Shown here in pieces: positions 4,664-64,000 of a stretch of 64,000 nucleotides of DNA (the first letter of the stretch is position 1; each line of letters begins with the position of its first letter). Made by a program: the position numbers and the translations under genes. The notes under the pieces are model-generated. The model was not told the origin of the DNA. It was given only the letters and a program-made list of their open reading frames with translations, and searched no databases. Source of the DNA: Chitinophagaceae bacterium (GTDB lineage: Bacteria; Bacteroidota; Bacteroidia; Chitinophagales; Chitinophagaceae); contig CANFLL010000009.1 in the NCBI GenBank assembly GCA_947447825.1, forward strand, positions 1-64,000. The letters are read 5' to 3'.

Positions 4664-4794
4664 AGTAATCTATTATATCTTAAAGTAATTACAAAATAAC
4701 TTTTAAAGTATTTAATCTCTATTCGAATTGATTTTTTCGGTAGCGCATTTTTTGGTGAAGAATGCATTTTGGTTCATTAATATTGTATTTTCAA

Positions 4795-5000
4795 TCAATC
4801 ATACAATGTAAATAATCAATGATACCGTATATTCTACAAATCATACAAGGTATTTAATAAATGATACGATATATTTTACGAATCATACACGGAATTAACG
4901 AATGATACGGGATATTTTATCATTCATACAAGGTAATGAACGAATCATAAAGTATATTGTATCATCCATACGAGATATTCAATCAATCATACCAAATAAG
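4795..5000. repeat. 21-bp-period degenerate array 1
   Basis: ATAC core at 4801, 4822, 4843, 4864, 4885, 4905, 4926, (ATAA) 4947, 4968, 4989. Confidence 0.9.
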
Positions 5001-9897: not shown

Positions 9898-9905
9898 TAC
9901 ATTTG
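9898..9905 (+). promoter_or_regulatory. Bacteroidota -7 element (TACATTTG) for SRP RNA
   Basis: TAnnTTTG ending 5 nt before the GGCAGG closing stem. Confidence 0.6.
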
Positions 9906-9910
9906 CAACC

Positions 9911-10005
9911 GGCAGGTCTCATACGACCAGCTCCTGCTAAACCTCCCCAGGGTAGGAATACAGCAAGGATAGGCGGTTGTAGCGGTGCGATGTGAGTAGC
10001 CTGCC
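9911..10005 (+). ncRNA. ffs: Signal recognition particle RNA (small bacterial type)
   Basis: GGCAGG...CCTGCC closing stem; CCAGGGTAGGAATACAGCAAGGATAGG matches the SRP domain IV core; followed by a T-rich tract. Confidence 0.88.
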
Positions 10006-10080
10006 GATTTTTTCTTTTCGCTACGGAGAGAATGATTCCAGAAGCTCCAAATACTATTTTATTCTCACTAAATATTAATC

Positions 10081-18609: not shown

Positions 18610-18810
18610 CTTTCAAGGTTATTGTTGTAATTCTTGAAATCTGATAAGAACCTCTGGAGGTTCAGACTAAAATCTTTGAAATCTAAGGTGAACCACTATA
18701 GGTTCAAGCCGAAATCTTTGGAATCTGAGTTAAACCTCTAGAGGTTCAGACCAATATCCTAGAAATCTGAGCTAAACCTATGTAGGTTCTTACTAGAATC
18801 CCGAAATAGG
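18610..18810. repeat. 42-bp-period degenerate array 2
   Basis: GGTT at 18617, 18659, 18701, 18743, 18785; AACC at 18649, 18691, 18733, 18775; GAAATCT-type core at 18636, 18678, 18720, 18762. Confidence 0.9.
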
Positions 18811-20430: not shown

Positions 20431-20508
20431 TAGTTGTTAGTGATTAGTTATTAGTGGTTAGTTTTAGCCTACAATAACTAACCACTAATAACTAATCACT
20501 AACAACTA
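20431..20508. repeat. Perfect 33-bp inverted repeat built from 7-nt units, filling the guaA-20520 gap
   Basis: tagttgttagtgattagttattagtggttagtt (20431-20463) and its exact reverse complement (20476-20508); 12-nt loop. Confidence 0.9.
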
Positions 20509-20519
20509 AAAAAGTGTTC

Positions 20520-30890: not shown

Positions 30891-31130
30891 AGTGTGAGAG
30901 CCAATTTTTACTGTCAGAGAGGGTTTTTCTTATGAGAGATGCGCAAATTGCATTACTACATTCAATAATCCTATTGCAAGAGGCAATAAAGTTATTGTCA
31001 GATACGATAATGTTTGTGTAAGATGCAATAATGTTAGTGTAAGATGCAATAATGTTGATGTAAGACGCAATAATGTTTATGTAAGATGCAATAATCTTAA
31101 TGTAAGATGCAATAATTATCAAGTAGTATA
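30891..31130. repeat. 21-bp-period degenerate array 3
   Basis: CAATAA-type core at 30963, 30984, 31005, 31026, 31047, 31068, 31089, 31110 (all exactly 21); weaker in-phase units upstream. Confidence 0.92.
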
Positions 31131-33663: not shown

Positions 33664-33720
33664 GCTCACATTTCATACTTCATATCTCATATCTCATATT
33701 TCACATTTCATATTTCATAA
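33664..33720. repeat. 7-nt tandem repeat (TCATATT-type)
   Basis: TCA every 7 nt (C at 33667, 33674, 33681, 33688, 33695, 33702, 33709, 33716). Confidence 0.9.
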
Positions 33721-43119: not shown

Positions 43120-43216
43120 CTGTTGGTAACTATTCATAACTATCAAGTGCTTTTCGGTGTAGTGAAACACGCAGCATATCACAGTGAGCACTTTCTTTTG
43201 TCCTCTTTCTTCCATT

Positions 43217-43420
43217 TATTCAACTGAGTCACGCTTATATTCACTTGAGTCAAGCTTATATTCACCTGAGTCGGCCAAAGATTCACCTGAGTCAGAAAAA
43301 GTTTCACCAGAGTGAGTCGACGACTCACTTGAGTCAGCCAAGGATTCAGTTGAGTCAGTCCACGACTCAACTGAGTGGGCCAAGGATTCAGTTGAGTCGT
43401 GGACTGACTCAACTGAAAAA
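43217..43420. repeat. 21-bp-period degenerate array 4
   Basis: TGAGT-type core at 43225, 43246, 43267, 43288, 43309, 43330, 43351, 43372, 43393, 43414; terminal 30-bp perfect inverted repeat 43345-43374 / 43388-43417. Confidence 0.93.
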
Positions 43421-43597
43421 ATGACGCTTTCTAAGTGGTAGTTTATATGAAAGTGACTACTTATCTAACATCCTTAATTTGCTAATTGTGGTTCATTAAC
43501 TCTTTTGGTATACTTCTTTCTAATTCAAGGTGATCTTTCCCTCATAAATATATTAGCATTTTAGTACTACCATATTCTACAATAGTCCAATATCATT

Positions 43598-57483: not shown

Positions 57484-58878
57484 ATGAAAAATATATTCTC
57501 TTGTTTATTACTTATGGGTACACTTTTAGTGCTACTCAATTCATGTTCGAAAGTTGCTGATAGCAAAGATTTATCTAAAGCAGTTGTTCAAATAGCTGCT
57601 CCAATTAGCGATGCTGCATGTTTGTCTGGTGCCATAAAAGGAACAATGCTTGAAGGTAAAACATACCATGTTTGTGGCGACATCATTATAAACAAAGGTG
57701 ATACCCTTACTATTCAAGAAGGAGTTAAAGTATTGTTTGAAGGAAGCTTTGGTTTGGGTGTAAAAGGTAGCCTTATCTCTTTAGGTACTAAAGAAAAGCC
57801 AAACTGGTTTACTTATGATAGTGCTACTCTGGTACGTACTGATAACATTGGTGCCGACCCTACAAAAGATCCTGCTTTGAAAGGATTGTGGACGGGCATT
57901 TTGGGGGACACCTCTTGTTATTTAATGGTAATTAAATGGACACATGTTGAGTTTGCTGGTGGAAAGGCGAGTGCAAAGCTTTCAGCTATTTCAAAGCCAT
58001 ATCCTATTTATTTTGCTAATCCTTACGGCACTTTTGTTTTAGAAGATTCTTGGTTGTATGGTAGTGTTGATGATCCTATTCGTACGTTAGGAGGAAAGAT
58101 TGCAGTTTTTAGAAATACTTTCGAGAAATGTGGACTTACTGGTGGGGAAGCATTAAATGCAAAAGCTGGTACAATTGGTGATTTTGCATATAATGTATGT
58201 ATTGGTATTGCTACCAATGGACCTAAACTTTCCAATTCTGGCGCAATAATCGGTGTGCCAGGTTCTAACTTACATATCTACAATAACACTATCATAAACT
58301 GTGGTTACAGAAGAGCTGCTGCTGGTAGAGGTGGTTCTATCAATTTTGAGCAAGATGCTGCGGGCTTGGCTTACAACAATATTATGGTGAACTGTAAGTT
58401 TGGTATTCGAATTGTGGCAAATCCAATTGCAGATACTGCCAATACTCACTATGGTTATAATCTTAATTATGGTGATTCTGCTTCGGTAGTAAATCAGTTT
58501 ATACCATCTACTTCCATCAGTACAGCTATTACAACTCCTCAATCAACAAATATTCCAAACGACTATTCTTTTCTTCCTACTGGTTGGAAAATAGGAGACA
58601 CATACACAGCACCAACTTCTATTATCGGAGCTAATAATCCACTATTTATCAACGGACCAGTTCCGTTGCCTGCTGGAGCAAGGTTGCAAGACATTTCTGT
58701 TGTTGGCAACTACAACTTCCGTTTGCAATCTACTTCTCCTTGTGCTGGTAAAGGATACACTGGCTTTAACGCAAGAGGTGATGTTGCAGTGGATGCAAAA
58801 TATGGCGTTACCGAATTAACTCCTCCGGGAAAAGATTTAGGTGCTTATCAGCTTGATGGCACAGGTAACCAACACTAA
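57484..58878 (+). CDS. Lipoprotein with right-handed beta-helix-like region
   Basis: Lipobox LLNSCSK; repetitive IYNNTIINCG / YNNIMVNCKFGIRI segments; 25 nt after the TonB receptor gene. Confidence 0.65.
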   Translation: MKNIFSCLLLMGTLLVLLNSCSKVADSKDLSKAVVQIAAPISDAACLSGAIKGTMLEGKTYHVCGDIIINKGDTLTIQEGVKVLFEGSFGLGVKGSLISLGTKEKPNWFTYDSATLVRTDNIGADPTKDPALKGLWTGILGDTSCYLMVIKWTHVEFAGGKASAKLSAISKPYPIYFANPYGTFVLEDSWLYGSVDDPIRTLGGKIAVFRNTFEKCGLTGGEALNAKAGTIGDFAYNVCIGIATNGPKLSNSGAIIGVPGSNLHIYNNTIINCGYRRAAAGRGGSINFEQDAAGLAYNNIMVNCKFGIRIVANPIADTANTHYGYNLNYGDSASVVNQFIPSTSISTAITTPQSTNIPNDYSFLPTGWKIGDTYTAPTSIIGANNPLFINGPVPLPAGARLQDISVVGNYNFRLQSTSPCAGKGYTGFNARGDVAVDAKYGVTELTPPGKDLGAYQLDGTGNQH

Positions 58879-58983
58879 AATTTATTTTTCAACTTTATAT
58901 AAATGGTCTGTAGCAGCGTTGTTACAGACCATTTTAATTTGATTTATAACGTATGCCTGCAATTGATTATCGTGTAATTAGTT

Positions 58984-59414
58984 TTCAAGGGTATGTAAAT
59001 TCAATCATTAATGATCTGTGCCAGATACCAACCGATGTAATTTTAATCATTAATGATCTCGGCTAGATATCAAGGGTATGTAAATTTAATCATTAATGTT
59101 CTGCGCCAGATACCAACCGATGTAATTTTAATCATTAATGATCTCGGCTAGATATCAAGGGTATGTAAATTCAATCATTAATGATCTGCGCCAGATACCA
59201 ACCGATGTAAATTCAATCATTAATGATCTTGGCTAGATATCAAGGGTATGTAAATTTAATCATTAATGATCTGCGCCAGATACCAACCGATGTAATTTTA
59301 ATCATTAATGATCTCGGCTAGATATCAAGGGTATGTAAATTTAATCATTAATGATCTGCGCCAGATACCAACCGATGTAATTTTAATCATTAATGATCTC
59401 GGCTAGATATCAAG
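58984..59414. repeat. 85-bp tandem array 5 (two 42/43-bp half-units)
   Basis: caaggg junction at 58986, 59071, 59156, 59241, 59326 and truncated 59411; ATCATTAATGAT-type core at 59004, 59046, 59089, 59131, 59174, 59216, 59259, 59301, 59344, 59386. Confidence 0.97.
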
Positions 59415-59713
59415 TACTAACCCTATAAGGGTTCAAAAATCATTAACCATTAACAACTGTTTCTCCGAGAACATATTGCGTTAACAAATTAGTAATAGTA
59501 AGTTAACGATAAGGTTACAATTTGGTAACAAACAGATTTGAATATTGCGCTTCGAATGAAACGTCATTCAAAGTAATATATGGTTAACAGCCCCCTCAAC
59601 CCGCAATTCTCGTTTTCTCTCTCAAATACACCTCATCAATACGATGGTTTACTGTTAAACCAGTATGCCCTCATTTGTATAAACGTTTTAATTTTTAATT
59701 AAACAAACAAAAA

Positions 59714-62700
59714 ATGAAAAAAGAACATTTACACGTCAAGCAACGTCTCTTGAAAATGAAGAGTGTTGTTGTTTTAATGTTACTCGCCCTGTTTTGGACG
59801 GGAGCAAGTTTTGCGCAAGTCAATCTGGTAACCTGGAATTTTGCAGGTACAGCTTCAACAGACTTTTCTGCTAGTGCTGCAAATAGAAATGGGGTTAGAA
59901 GTACAGGACTTGCTTCTATTGGTAGTGGGTATTCTCTTTATGACATCACTAACTCAAACAATACAACCCTTACTTACAAGGCGGCTTCAAATAATTATTT
60001 TGCTTTGCAAGCTTACAACAATGCATTTGCAAATAATACCACCGATTATATCCAGACTTCAGTTTCGTTACCTACAGGTTATGTTTTTGGGTCAAACCCA
60101 TTAAGTCTTGTTATTCTATCTGGCGGTAGTAGTGCTACCAACAAAAAGTATTATAAAGTTTATTACCAGTATAGTTCAAGTACCTCTGGCATTCCTACGT
60201 CGGCAGTAACCACATCAACAGGTTCCACAGTTGGTTCAGGTATTGCAAACGGAACTGGATCGGCAAGTACTACTGCTTATGACGAAGTAGATGAAGTTCC
60301 TGCTTGGGTAAGTCCCACTACAACATCAGTTTCAGTGGCCAATACCAACACCATTACCATTCCTGCTCCAAGTAATAGTAGTTCTACCGTTTTAACCATT
60401 CAAGTAAGATTATGGAGTAGCAATGCTTCTGGAAACTGGCGTATGGGCTTATTTCAATTGACTGCACCTAACGGAGATATTGTTTCGCCTGTGCCAACGA
60501 TTTCTTCTTTTTCACCTGCTACTTCTACTCTTTTTGCAGGTTCTACTGCTCAAACTTTATCTATAGTAGGAACCAACTTCGATAATACAACGCCTACAAC
60601 TGTTACCTTCAATGGTAATACAAAAACCGTTACTTATAATAGTAGTACCCAAATTTCTATTCCATTGACCGCTACGGATTTACAAACTGCTGGCACTTAC
60701 CCGATTGTTGTGGCAAATGGTTCTAATACTGTTTCTGCAAATTATACAGTATTGTCTGCACCCACAGTAAGCATTGCCGATAATGGCACTCAGCCAAGTG
60801 CAGGAAATGTTTTACAGGCAAGTACAAAGAATAATTTACAAAGCTTTGTAATAAATAACTCAACATCTAGCCTTGCAACACTAAGCACCTTAAAAGCTCA
60901 TTTTACGGGTACTTACACTGCAAGTGATATTAACTCGTTTAAAGTTTACTACAATAGTTCAAATAGTTTGGCAAGTGCTACTCAAGTAGCTACTTCTGTA
61001 AGTGCTTCAACTAATACTTCTCAATCTACAACTGGTAGTGAGACGATTAATTTTACTGTAAATAAAACATTGGTACAAGGTAATAACTACTTCTGGGTAG
61101 TTGTAAGCCCTGATGCGAGTGCAAATATTACAAGCCCGTTCTCTACAGTTAGGGCAACAGCACTTACTAGCAGCGATTTTGGCTTTACAACTGCTACCAT
61201 TTCTAGCGCATCTGTAAGTGCAGGTGGCACACAAACTATTGCGCAAGGGCAAACAGTTTATATGGATGATATTACCAATCAACCTTCTGGAAACATTGCT
61301 CAAAATGCAAAAGTTGCCTTGGCTGGTTTCTATCTAAACCCTTATGCTTCATCGTTATTTAGTGGTGTAAATGTGTATGCCACAGGTTCTGCAACTGCAA
61401 CAGACATTACTTCAATTGCTATTTACAAAGATGTAAACAACAATGGGGTTTATGATGCAGGTACCGATGTATTGGTTTCTACCAATACACCAACTTTTAG
61501 TACATCAAATACCACTCCTATAGCTTTTACATTGAATCAGACAATTAGTAGCAAAACACAATACCTGATTGTTGCAACCATTGGCGATGTATTCGTTTCA
61601 ACCATTGGTCACACAGTTCAATTGGCTATTAATGACCAAGATTTCACTGTTTCTAACTATCCTGCAGCAGGTGCTTCTAATGGTGGAAATTCATTATCTA
61701 TCGTTGCGCCAACTGGTACATCAACCCTTGCTACTAATGGTACACCAGTTGCTACCATTTCTTCATTAGTAACAACTAGTGCTGCGGCAGTTCCCGTTTA
61801 CAGCTTCGATTTTCATAATGATAATACAAATACAAATGCAGCTTCTTTAATCTCTCAAATAGTAATTGGGCAAGGAAGTGCAAACAGCGCACTATTTGTA
61901 AACTGGAGTAACATTATTGGTGGTGCAACTTTGTCTGACGGTGCAAATACATTAACTGGAACTGTAGGAACTAGCGGAATCACTTTCGCATCAATCCCTA
62001 CTACTACTACTGATGCATTAGGATATGTAGCAACAAATACTACTAAGACTTATACATTAAGTATCTATCTAAAATCTTCTTTATCTACTGCAATACAGCA
62101 AGGAATTAATGGTGCTCAGTTGGCATTTGCACTTATAAATAGTAGTTTCACACTTACAGGTAGCACATTAGCAGCTAGCCAAAGCATTAATTCTGGTACA
62201 ACAAATGGCGCAATTAGTGTAGTTGCAACTAAACTTGCCTATGTGCAAGCGCCTACAAGTGGTTCTCCAAATGTTGTATTAACACCTGCTGTTACTGTTC
62301 AAGCAGTAGATGCTAATGGTAACTATGCAACAAGTTACGCTGGTACAGTAACTTTAGCTTCTAATCCTACTGGTATTAATGGAACATTGTCTGCATCTAC
62401 TTCTAATGGCTTGGCAACATTCAGTACCTTACAATTTACTTCTACAGGTACTTACTCTATTACAGCAACTTCTGGTAGTTTAACAAGTGTTAGTAGTAAT
62501 GCACTTATTGCAAATGCGTTGTATACAGGTAATGCTGCTGGTACAGCATATACTTGGGAAGCTGCTAATGTTTGGGGAACATCATCATCAAACACAGCAA
62601 CTACGAGCTGGACCGAAGGTGATGATGCTCATTTTGTAAACAAAGCTGCAACTGTTACTTTAGGTAGTAGTCATACTGCCACAAGCTTAAATTTTGATAC

Positions 62701-64000
62701 TACTGGTTATACATTAACTGGAACAGGAACTTTAACTCTTACAGGCTCTAATCCTAGTATCAATATTGTTAAAAGCGGTTTAGAAACTTTCAATTTGCCA
62801 ATAAGTGCTGCTAGTAATTTATTGTTTGCACCAACTTCTGGTACTGCTACCATGACTATTGGCGCAAATGGTGCTGCTGCAAATAAGTATAGTGCAAACT
62901 TACCTAATGGTGCAACTTTAGGCTTAGGATTAAATACAGTAAACCTATTATGTAGCTATCCTTTTGGTAACACAAACTCACCGTTATACGTGAATTCATC
63001 TATTGCTTCACCTTCCATGATTACCACTTCAAGTGCTACTGCGGTTACAACCCCAATGCCTTTAACAGTTTCTAATAACATCGTAATCTCTACTGGTGGT
63101 GCTTTAAGTCTTTGTCCTACAGGTGCAGGCTTGTATGGTAACCTCATTAAATACACAGGTGTTATCAGTGGTGCTGCCAATGCAATATGTATGAGTAACT
63201 CTTTAGGAACTTCTAGCCAATTTGCTACTGGTGGTAAGGGAATGGTTTATTTCGGTGCAAAGAATACTTATTCTGGTACAACCTTTATGGCAGGTAACCA
63301 AGGTTCTTTAATATGTGGTGGAGGCGACAATACCTTGCCTTCTACAACCGATGTATTATTCTTTACAGGTGCGACTGCTGGAGATGCCCCATTGTTAGAC
63401 TTAAATGGTAGTAACGAAAAGGTTTCATCTATTTCTGGTAGTGATGGTCTTGCATCGCATGTTACTACAGGTTTGTATCCTGGTGGGGTTTATAACTCAC
63501 TTACTTACACACAGAATTATGCCGCTACAACTACAAGTGTAACTGTGTTCGATAGTTTAATTTCTTCTTACATCTCTGCAGGTACTATAGCAGTAGGTAC
63601 TAAAGTATTCGGTTCTGGTATTACTTATGGTACAACTATATCATCTATTACCAAACAAACCATTGCAGGTTATACTTGCGATGTGTTGGGAATGAGCCAA
63701 GCAATTACTTCGGTATTAAGTGCTAACCAAGGTTTCTATATTTTCTTCGAAAATCCAACACAGAAAACACTAACCATTGAAGGTGTTGGTAGCGTGGGTG
63801 GTCCTTACGATCCTCAGGTAGGACATACTATTGACCGTACTAATGCTAATTATGGTGCAACCATCAATGGTAATGTTGCATTAACACTTTCTGCTAATAA
63901 TGCTACTGCCAACAAGTTAACCTTGCTTAATACAAATACCTACATCGGTAATACTACGGTTACTAATGGTACACTTGTTTTTGCACACGTTGGTGGAAAC
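59714..64000 (+). CDS. Giant secreted surface protein, partial (IPT/TIG-like domain, autotransporter-associated beta-strand-like repeat)
   Basis: MKKEHLHVKQRLLKMKSVVVLMLLALFWTGASFAQ signal peptide; frame from 59714 is the frame reading NKLTLLNTNTYIGNTTVTNGTLVFAHVGGN at the window edge; no terminated ORF from 59714 is in the supplied track, consistent with an open frame to the edge. Confidence 0.8.
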   Translation, partial: MKKEHLHVKQRLLKMKSVVVLMLLALFWTGASFAQVNLVTWNFAGTASTDFSASAANRNGVRSTGLASIGSGYSLYDITNSNNTTLTYKAASNNYFALQAYNNAFANNTTDYIQTSVSLPTGYVFGSNPLSLVILSGGSSATNKKYYKVYYQYSSSTSGIPTSAVTTSTGSTVGSGIANGTGSASTTAYDEVDEVPAWVSPTTTSVSVANTNTITIPAPSNSSSTVLTIQVRLWSSNASGNWRMGLFQLTAPNGDIVSPVPTISSFSPATSTLFAGSTAQTLSIVGTNFDNTTPTTVTFNGNTKTVTYNSSTQISIPLTATDLQTAGTYPIVVANGSNTVSANYTVLSAPTVSIADNGTQPSAGNVLQASTKNNLQSFVINNSTSSLATLSTLKAHFTGTYTASDINSFKVYYNSSNSLASATQVATSVSASTNTSQSTTGSETINFTVNKTLVQGNNYFWVVVSPDASANITSPFSTVRATALTSSDFGFTTATISSASVSAGGTQTIAQGQTVYMDDITNQPSGNIAQNAKVALAGFYLNPYASSLFSGVNVYATGSATATDITSIAIYKDVNNNGVYDAGTDVLVSTNTPTFSTSNTTPIAFTLNQTISSKTQYLIVATIGDVFVSTIGHTVQLAINDQDFTVSNYPAAGASNGGNSLSIVAPTGTSTLATNGTPVATISSLVTTSAAAVPVYSFDFHNDNTNTNAASLISQIVIGQGSANSALFVNWSNIIGGATLSDGANTLTGTVGTSGITFASIPTTTTDALGYVATNTTKTYTLSIYLKSSLSTAIQQGINGAQLAFALINSSFTLTGSTLAASQSINSGTTNGAISVVATKLAYVQAPTSGSPNVVLTPAVTVQAVDANGNYATSYAGTVTLASNPTGINGTLSASTSNGLATFSTLQFTSTGTYSITATSGSLTSVSSNALIANALYTGNAAGTAYTWEAANVWGTSSSNTATTSWTEGDDAHFVNKAATVTLGSSHTATSLNFDTTGYTLTGTGTLTLTGSNPSINIVKSGLETFNLPISAASNLLFAPTSGTATMTIGANGAAANKYSANLPNGATLGLGLNTVNLLCSYPFGNTNSPLYVNSSIASPSMITTSSATAVTTPMPLTVSNNIVISTGGALSLCPTGAGLYGNLIKYTGVISGAANAICMSNSLGTSSQFATGGKGMVYFGAKNTYSGTTFMAGNQGSLICGGGDNTLPSTTDVLFFTGATAGDAPLLDLNGSNEKVSSISGSDGLASHVTTGLYPGGVYNSLTYTQNYAATTTSVTVFDSLISSYISAGTIAVGTKVFGSGITYGTTISSITKQTIAGYTCDVLGMSQAITSVLSANQGFYIFFENPTQKTLTIEGVGSVGGPYDPQVGHTIDRTNANYGATINGNVALTLSANNATANKLTLLNTNTYIGNTTVTNGTLVFAHVGGN

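Follow-up and report, generated by a model that had tools for sequence, protein, structure and literature searches.

Mycobacterial interspersed repetitive units (MIRU) are composed of a short unit repeated in tandem at numerous intergenic sites, each with its own copy number. REP and BIME hairpins carry a GTAG/CGTC tag (PMC3733652), and in sopC (parS-F) of the F plasmid, repeats of 43 bp that contain inverted-repeat motifs follow each other in tandem (PMC6238139). Tandem arrays are pervasive in Borg elements, where they arose independently, are in many cases intergenic and are lineage-specific (PMC9879509). Heptamer repeats (TAACTGA and similar) are intergenic direct repeats of cyanobacteria, Beggiatoaceae and some Bacteroidetes (PMC4679880). 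Here, we describe an array in a stretch of 64,000 nucleotides from a Chitinophagaceae bacterium (the window). This array, referred to as array 5, belongs as one locus to a family of tandem arrays that is dispersed in the genome. The source species is represented by one genome of 187 contigs, in which genes are ORF calls.

Architecture and surroundings of array 5

In the window, TRF places array 5 at 58985–59414, with a period of 85 bp, 5.1 copies, 96% matches and a score of 811. Identity at lag 85 amounts to 0.965, compared to a maximum of 0.38 in 500 shuffles over all lags from 10 to 119. The ten half-unit starts are spaced by 42, 43, 42, 43, 42, 43, 42, 43 and 42 bp without exception, which bears out the preliminary description of 85-bp repeats with alternating 42- and 43-bp half-units at 58984–59414. 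The 12-nt palindrome reported for each half-unit is present as well, as the dyad core ATCATTAATGAT is perfect in nine out of ten half-units and reads ATCATTAATGTT in the remaining one, and the two different tails are as described. The quoted half-unit sequence, TGTAAWTTTAATCATTAATGATCT, is exact in six half-units and has to be amended for the other four (three with TTC, one with GTTCT). The components of the array are the following:

58985–59414, + strand: array 5, ten half-units of 42-bp type A and 43-bp type B in alternation; 5.1 copies of the 85-bp dimer
type A half-unit, 42 bp: tail ...ACCAACCGA
type B half-unit, 43 bp: tail ...ATCAAGGGTA
59004–59015, no strand: dyad core ATCATTAATGAT, the first of ten, with arms conserved in two species
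59046, 59089 (as ..GTT), 59131, 59174, 59216, 59259, 59301, 59344 and 59386: the other nine dyad cores
59405–59413, + strand: final copy of the conserved second block, AGATAYCAA, present once per half-unit

The entire 85-bp unit repeats and unique spacers are absent, which sets array 5 apart from CRISPR arrays. No 21-bp sub-repeat was found inside the unit. A coding repeat was rejected: neither 85 nor 42.5 is a multiple of three, and the 21n arrays described below are no more open than shuffles. RNA folding of the array is no better than that of shuffles (z −1.2), DNA folding is slightly better, and the dyad strength of the unit, on a broad measure, does not exceed that of column shuffles. No Rfam match lies within array 5; elsewhere in the window, the Bacteroidales small SRP RNA (RF04183) is matched at 9903–10010 with 94 bits.

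Array 5 is intergenic and has the following neighbors:

57484–58878, + strand: upstream ORF, 464 aa, without Pfam match
58901–58934, + strand: terminator-like hairpin of the upstream gene, between this gene and array 5
59419–59433, no strand: palindrome AACCCTATAAGGGTT, a short dispersed sequence directly 3' of array 5
59714–64000, + strand: giant downstream ORF, 2377 aa in the full contig, matching the N-terminal domain of a BNR-repeat neuraminidase

The array starts 107 bp past the preceding ORF and ends 300 bp ahead of the 59714 ORF, in agreement with the earlier placement upstream of a giant adhesin-like gene. A Bacteroidota-type promoter (TAnnTTTG) was not found between 58879 and 59713. 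The right flank is unique save for the 15-bp palindrome at 59419–59433, which is also tripled as an 18-bp repeat after the family array of contig 51 (L055:117-169) and occurs in about 12 further places. Array 5 was not found downstream of the orthologues of the upstream ORF in three relatives (G002, G006, G010); this position is taken by a different 21-bp array in G002 and by a 7-bp array in G010.

Dispersal and conservation of the array-5 family

The preliminary description proposed to search for the unit elsewhere in the genome. Such a search (4.65 Mb, 187 contigs) yields about 16 further places with 79–95% identity, bringing the total to about 17 loci. They are located on contigs 59, 29, 15 (twice), 81, 175, 37, 74, 49, 90, 64, 51, 68, 33, 50 and 122; a weak match inside a gene on contig 87 was taken as chance. 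All arrays of the family are intergenic and occur in tandem, divergent and convergent gaps. They comprise 1 to 13 half-units and start and stop at varying phases of the unit. Five of them start or stop at a contig end (contigs 37, 90, 64, 51 and 33), indicating that the arrays break the assembly and that copy numbers there are lower bounds. Neighboring genes encode peptide deformylase, orotidine decarboxylase (pyrF), glycyl-tRNA synthetase, an ABC transporter, NamZ, a T9SS plug, glycosidases and unknowns. Across these loci, no consistent tie to gene starts, gene ends or functions emerges, nor a clear preference for 3' ends.

Flanks differ among most loci, with short flanks common to C15/C74 and to C59/C15. 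The array-5 loci are not bordered by common element ends or by terminal inverted repeats, apart from copies of an unrelated MITE of about 170 bp. The latter ends in inverted sequences GTAACTATTCAGGGG, with target duplications of 8 bp (TATAAAGT, ATTCTGAT, AACAATTC); copies lie at L051:6434-6601, L052:12195-12361, L052:14607-14779, L046:7130-7301 and others, and one copy abuts or interrupts the family array on contig 81 (L048:8404-8551). An apparent long target duplication beside this element at C15 was dismissed, as it looks like a local duplication and the other copies show 8-bp duplications.

An alignment of 101 half-units from 14 loci reveals two near-invariant blocks, TAA-TT-AATCATTAATG-T and GC-AGATA-CAA. 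At several other loci, some of the B half-units have a second block that opens an inverted repeat (AGATACC-aag-GGTATCT) centered about 21.5 bp from the first dyad. Neighboring half-units switch between A and B in 75 out of 87 cases, while 2000 shuffles give at most 61. Half-units are also closer to each other within a locus (0.07–0.09) than between loci (0.12), a difference reached in none of 500 permutations. This homogenization within arrays supports a fairly recent amplification, as had been proposed from the high identity of the repeats. AA/TT phasing at 10.6 bp exceeds that of unit shuffles in the family (p ~0.02 for the window array).

Outside the source species, the repeat was found in one sister Chitinophagaceae species (G003) alone, as two arrays that have diverged. 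A half-unit model finds 142 matches in the source genome, nine in the sister species and, in the rest of the genus, marginal ones at most; a single contig, from the same sister species, was recovered when 85,000 species were scanned for the pattern. In these copies, the arms AATCAT..ATGAT and the AGATA motif are unchanged and the dyad center varies (e.g., TTAA to TCGA), giving a cross-species core of the dyad AATCATnnATG-T plus AGATA. Searches of IMG/VR, plasmids and phages gave zero matches; therefore, a plasmid, phage or viral origin of the repeat was rejected.

A 21-bp period in unrelated arrays of the genus

Four other intergenic arrays occur in the window, with unrelated sequences and periods of 21, 42, 63 or 84 bp:

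4794–4991, + strand: different intergenic array, period 42 (21)
18634–18789, + strand: different intergenic array, period 42/84, dyad AACCTCTAGAGGTT
30963–31116, + strand: different intergenic array, period 21/63
43218–43416, + strand: different 21-bp array of the CTGAGTC (CTGAGTCAG) family, internal to a dispersed element that is truncated here

Prompted by the periods of these four arrays, 400 kb of the genome (G000) was sampled, and the genome-wide numbers derive from searches and this sample. Strong intergenic arrays were defined by a TRF score of at least 90 and a period of at least 18. A period was considered to fit 21n if it deviates from a multiple of 21 by no more than 0.5 bp per unit, which is expected for 21% of periods between 18 and 130; this tolerance was picked post hoc, and the effect far exceeds that freedom. 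In the sample, 22 out of 23 strong intergenic arrays fit (periods of 21, 42, 63, 84, 126 or 41/82), or 17 out of 18 sequence families if each family is counted once. The rule extends to relatives of the genus, with 24 fitting arrays out of 32 (642 kb), whereas other genera of the family contain only four such arrays (615 kb). Intergenic 6-mers show autocorrelation peaks at lags 42, 82, 84, 63, 21 and 126. Array density in the sample is about 57 per Mb, and most arrays of the genus have their own sequences.

Open frames are as frequent in 21n arrays as in shuffles. Periods of 41, 82 and 85 are multiples of neither three nor seven, which favors helical phase over a coding or heptamer-based explanation. 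Arrays of AGTGATT/CACTAAT and TCATATT heptamers were also observed (window 20473–20509 and 33666–33719; L054:250-390; L056:7506-7656). Curvature by A-tracts was discarded as the general cause of the 21-bp period, given that the AA/TT phasing signal is confined to the array-5 family. Short inverted repeats with z above 2 occur in 14 out of 41 arrays of the genus. Compensated changes over all arrays show a modest excess (30 versus 14.4 expected, next to 281 uncompensated changes), which is weak as a proof of dyad selection.

Two further observations concern how such arrays come to lie where they are. The CTGAGTC family resides in an element of about 700 bp that has TTAATTCTACTTTGACAGATTA as terminal inverted repeats and holds between 6 and 10 of the 21-bp units in its interior. 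This element occurs at no fewer than 34 loci in this genome, with a few matches in G001, G006 and G010; a truncated copy spans 43165–43435 of the window (other copies L211-L230). In the gap before pyrF, a 21/63-bp array lies between the upstream terminator and the gene in three relatives (L075, L076, L079), but three other relatives (L077, L078, L080) have no array in this gap. This natural pair of filled and empty sites indicates that there are defined loci at which arrays of the genus appear.

Altogether, the genus may harbor hundreds of intergenic arrays, mostly unrelated in sequence, with a period of 21 bp or a multiple thereof. Such a rule would imply that a dedicated protein, or a machinery for duplication, measures DNA in steps of two helical turns, and array 5 would belong to the most regularly alternating dispersed family (42/43, or 21.25 bp per two turns). 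We put this generalization forward with considerable doubt. No earlier description of a two-turn (21-bp) spacing rule for unrelated intergenic arrays was found in the open-access literature.

Possible role and origin of the arrays

The explanation that we prefer, tentatively and as a plausible rather than a probable one, is that arrays of the array-5 type are platforms of helically phased sites that a putative DNA-binding protein binds cooperatively, and that they are homogenized and spread by recombination. Each half-unit would offer a conserved dyad site (AATCATnnATG-T) and the second block AGATAYCAA. Half-units follow each other every 42.5 bp on average, i.e., four turns at 10.6 bp per turn, so that all sites would face the same side of the helix. 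A regulator or nucleoid protein could then bind cooperatively to many in-phase sites, with selection presumably acting on the phasing and with a possible effect on neighboring genes or chromosome structure, while unequal recombination would alter the copy number and homogenize each locus. In favor of this explanation are the dispersal over about 17 intergenic loci, the strict A/B alternation, the core kept across half-units and in the sister species, the AA/TT phasing of the family, the noncoding nature of the arrays and the restriction of intergenic array periods in the genus to 21n. Our confidence is held back because the dyad evidence over all arrays is modest and the AA/TT phasing does not extend beyond the array-5 family. 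Further points against it are the dyad strength of the array-5 unit, which on the broad measure stays within that of column shuffles, the lack of a 21-bp sub-repeat in this unit and the lack of a consistent tie to gene starts, gene ends or functions. Moreover, similarity between loci could stem from copying instead of selection.

The strongest rival to phased platforms is selfish or neutral satellite DNA without function, spread by ectopic recombination or by hitch-hiking on mobile DNA and amplified by slippage, an account that we deem rather doubtful. The 21-bp rule would then reflect the amplification mechanism, for instance a nucleoprotein that exposes or duplicates two-turn blocks, and not the selection of sites. 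The genes flanking the array-5 loci share no functional theme, array ends and copy number vary, another 21-bp family rides inside an inverted-repeat element at 34 or more loci, and arrays are present or absent between species at the pyrF locus, all of which suit a satellite. Yet the dyad arms and AGATA stay the same from one species to the other whereas the remaining columns have drifted, and the A/B order is maintained. Very unlikely is the reading of array 5 as a repeat from the interior or the subterminal part of a transposon or MITE, which is already mostly refuted. The CTGAGTC arrays do sit in an element with terminal inverted repeats and shared ends, and a few array-5 loci have short flanks in common (C15/C74, C59/C15), but neither hallmark is found for the array-5 family itself, most of its loci have no common flanks and the window array is followed by unique sequence apart from the palindrome.

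The preliminary description suggested that copy number could tune the expression of the adhesin-like gene, and the distance of 300 bp to the 59714 gene fits a variable-number cis-regulatory repeat. Such a specific role is not supported, as the family adjoins unrelated genes at about 17 loci in gaps of all orientations, and is very unlikely also in view of the upstream terminator and the gap devoid of TAnnTTTG. Transcribed hairpins acting at the RNA level, as REP-like terminators or mRNA stabilizers, would accord with the inverted repeats in about a third of the genus arrays (14 out of 41); the unremarkable RNA fold of array 5, the missing Rfam match and the lack of a clear 3'-end preference make this highly improbable. 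The most remote of the explanations considered is a centromere-like partition site similar to sopC, for which the architecture of 42–43-bp repeats with one dyad each would be matching (PMC6238139), whereas a single site is expected instead of about 17 dispersed ones, and plasmids and phages have no match.

The 21-bp rule points to one of two things, a new protein of the nucleoid or of gene regulation for which phased sites are the target, or an amplification process that carries its own ruler. These alternatives are open to direct test because loci such as pyrF exist at which an array is present in one species and absent in a sister species.

Comparison with described repeat systems

Dispersed tandem repeats are known in bacteria, but a genus-wide two-turn rule for unrelated intergenic arrays is apparently undescribed. 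With sopC, array 5 has in common the tandem repeats of about 43 bp and the dyad in each, but the family occupies about 17 loci with ordinary chromosomal neighbors and no plasmid match; parAB was not found beside the array-5 loci, where the nearest genes with a Pfam match are others. The likeness to REP/BIME lies in the intergenic, dispersed and alternating dyad-bearing units and in the presence of Y1_Tnp (IS200/RAYT-type) genes in the genome. Nonetheless, the array-5 consensus lacks the GTAG/CGTC tag, its hairpins are weak and its units are in tandem with a fixed phase. The Y1_Tnp matches lie on C114, C103 (two), C125 and C64; the first three contigs carry no array-5 array, the match on C64 scores below the cut-off at about 12.7 kb from one, and none was seen adjoining an array-5 array. 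Heptamer repeats are paralleled by the 7- and 14-bp arrays of this genome, although heptamers are not the building blocks of array 5 or of most 21n arrays. As in Borgs, arrays are pervasive, independent, often intergenic and restricted to a single lineage. Borg intergenic repeats, however, are near-perfect and only 14–38% of their unit lengths are divisible by three, whereas periods here are almost all 21n and copies have diverged. The array-5 family resembles MIRU in forming tandem arrays at many loci between genes, with a copy number that depends on the locus, and may be a MIRU-like dispersed VNTR. It differs in its unrelated sequence, in the alternation of two half-units at 42/43 bp and in the 21-bp rule that holds across the genus.
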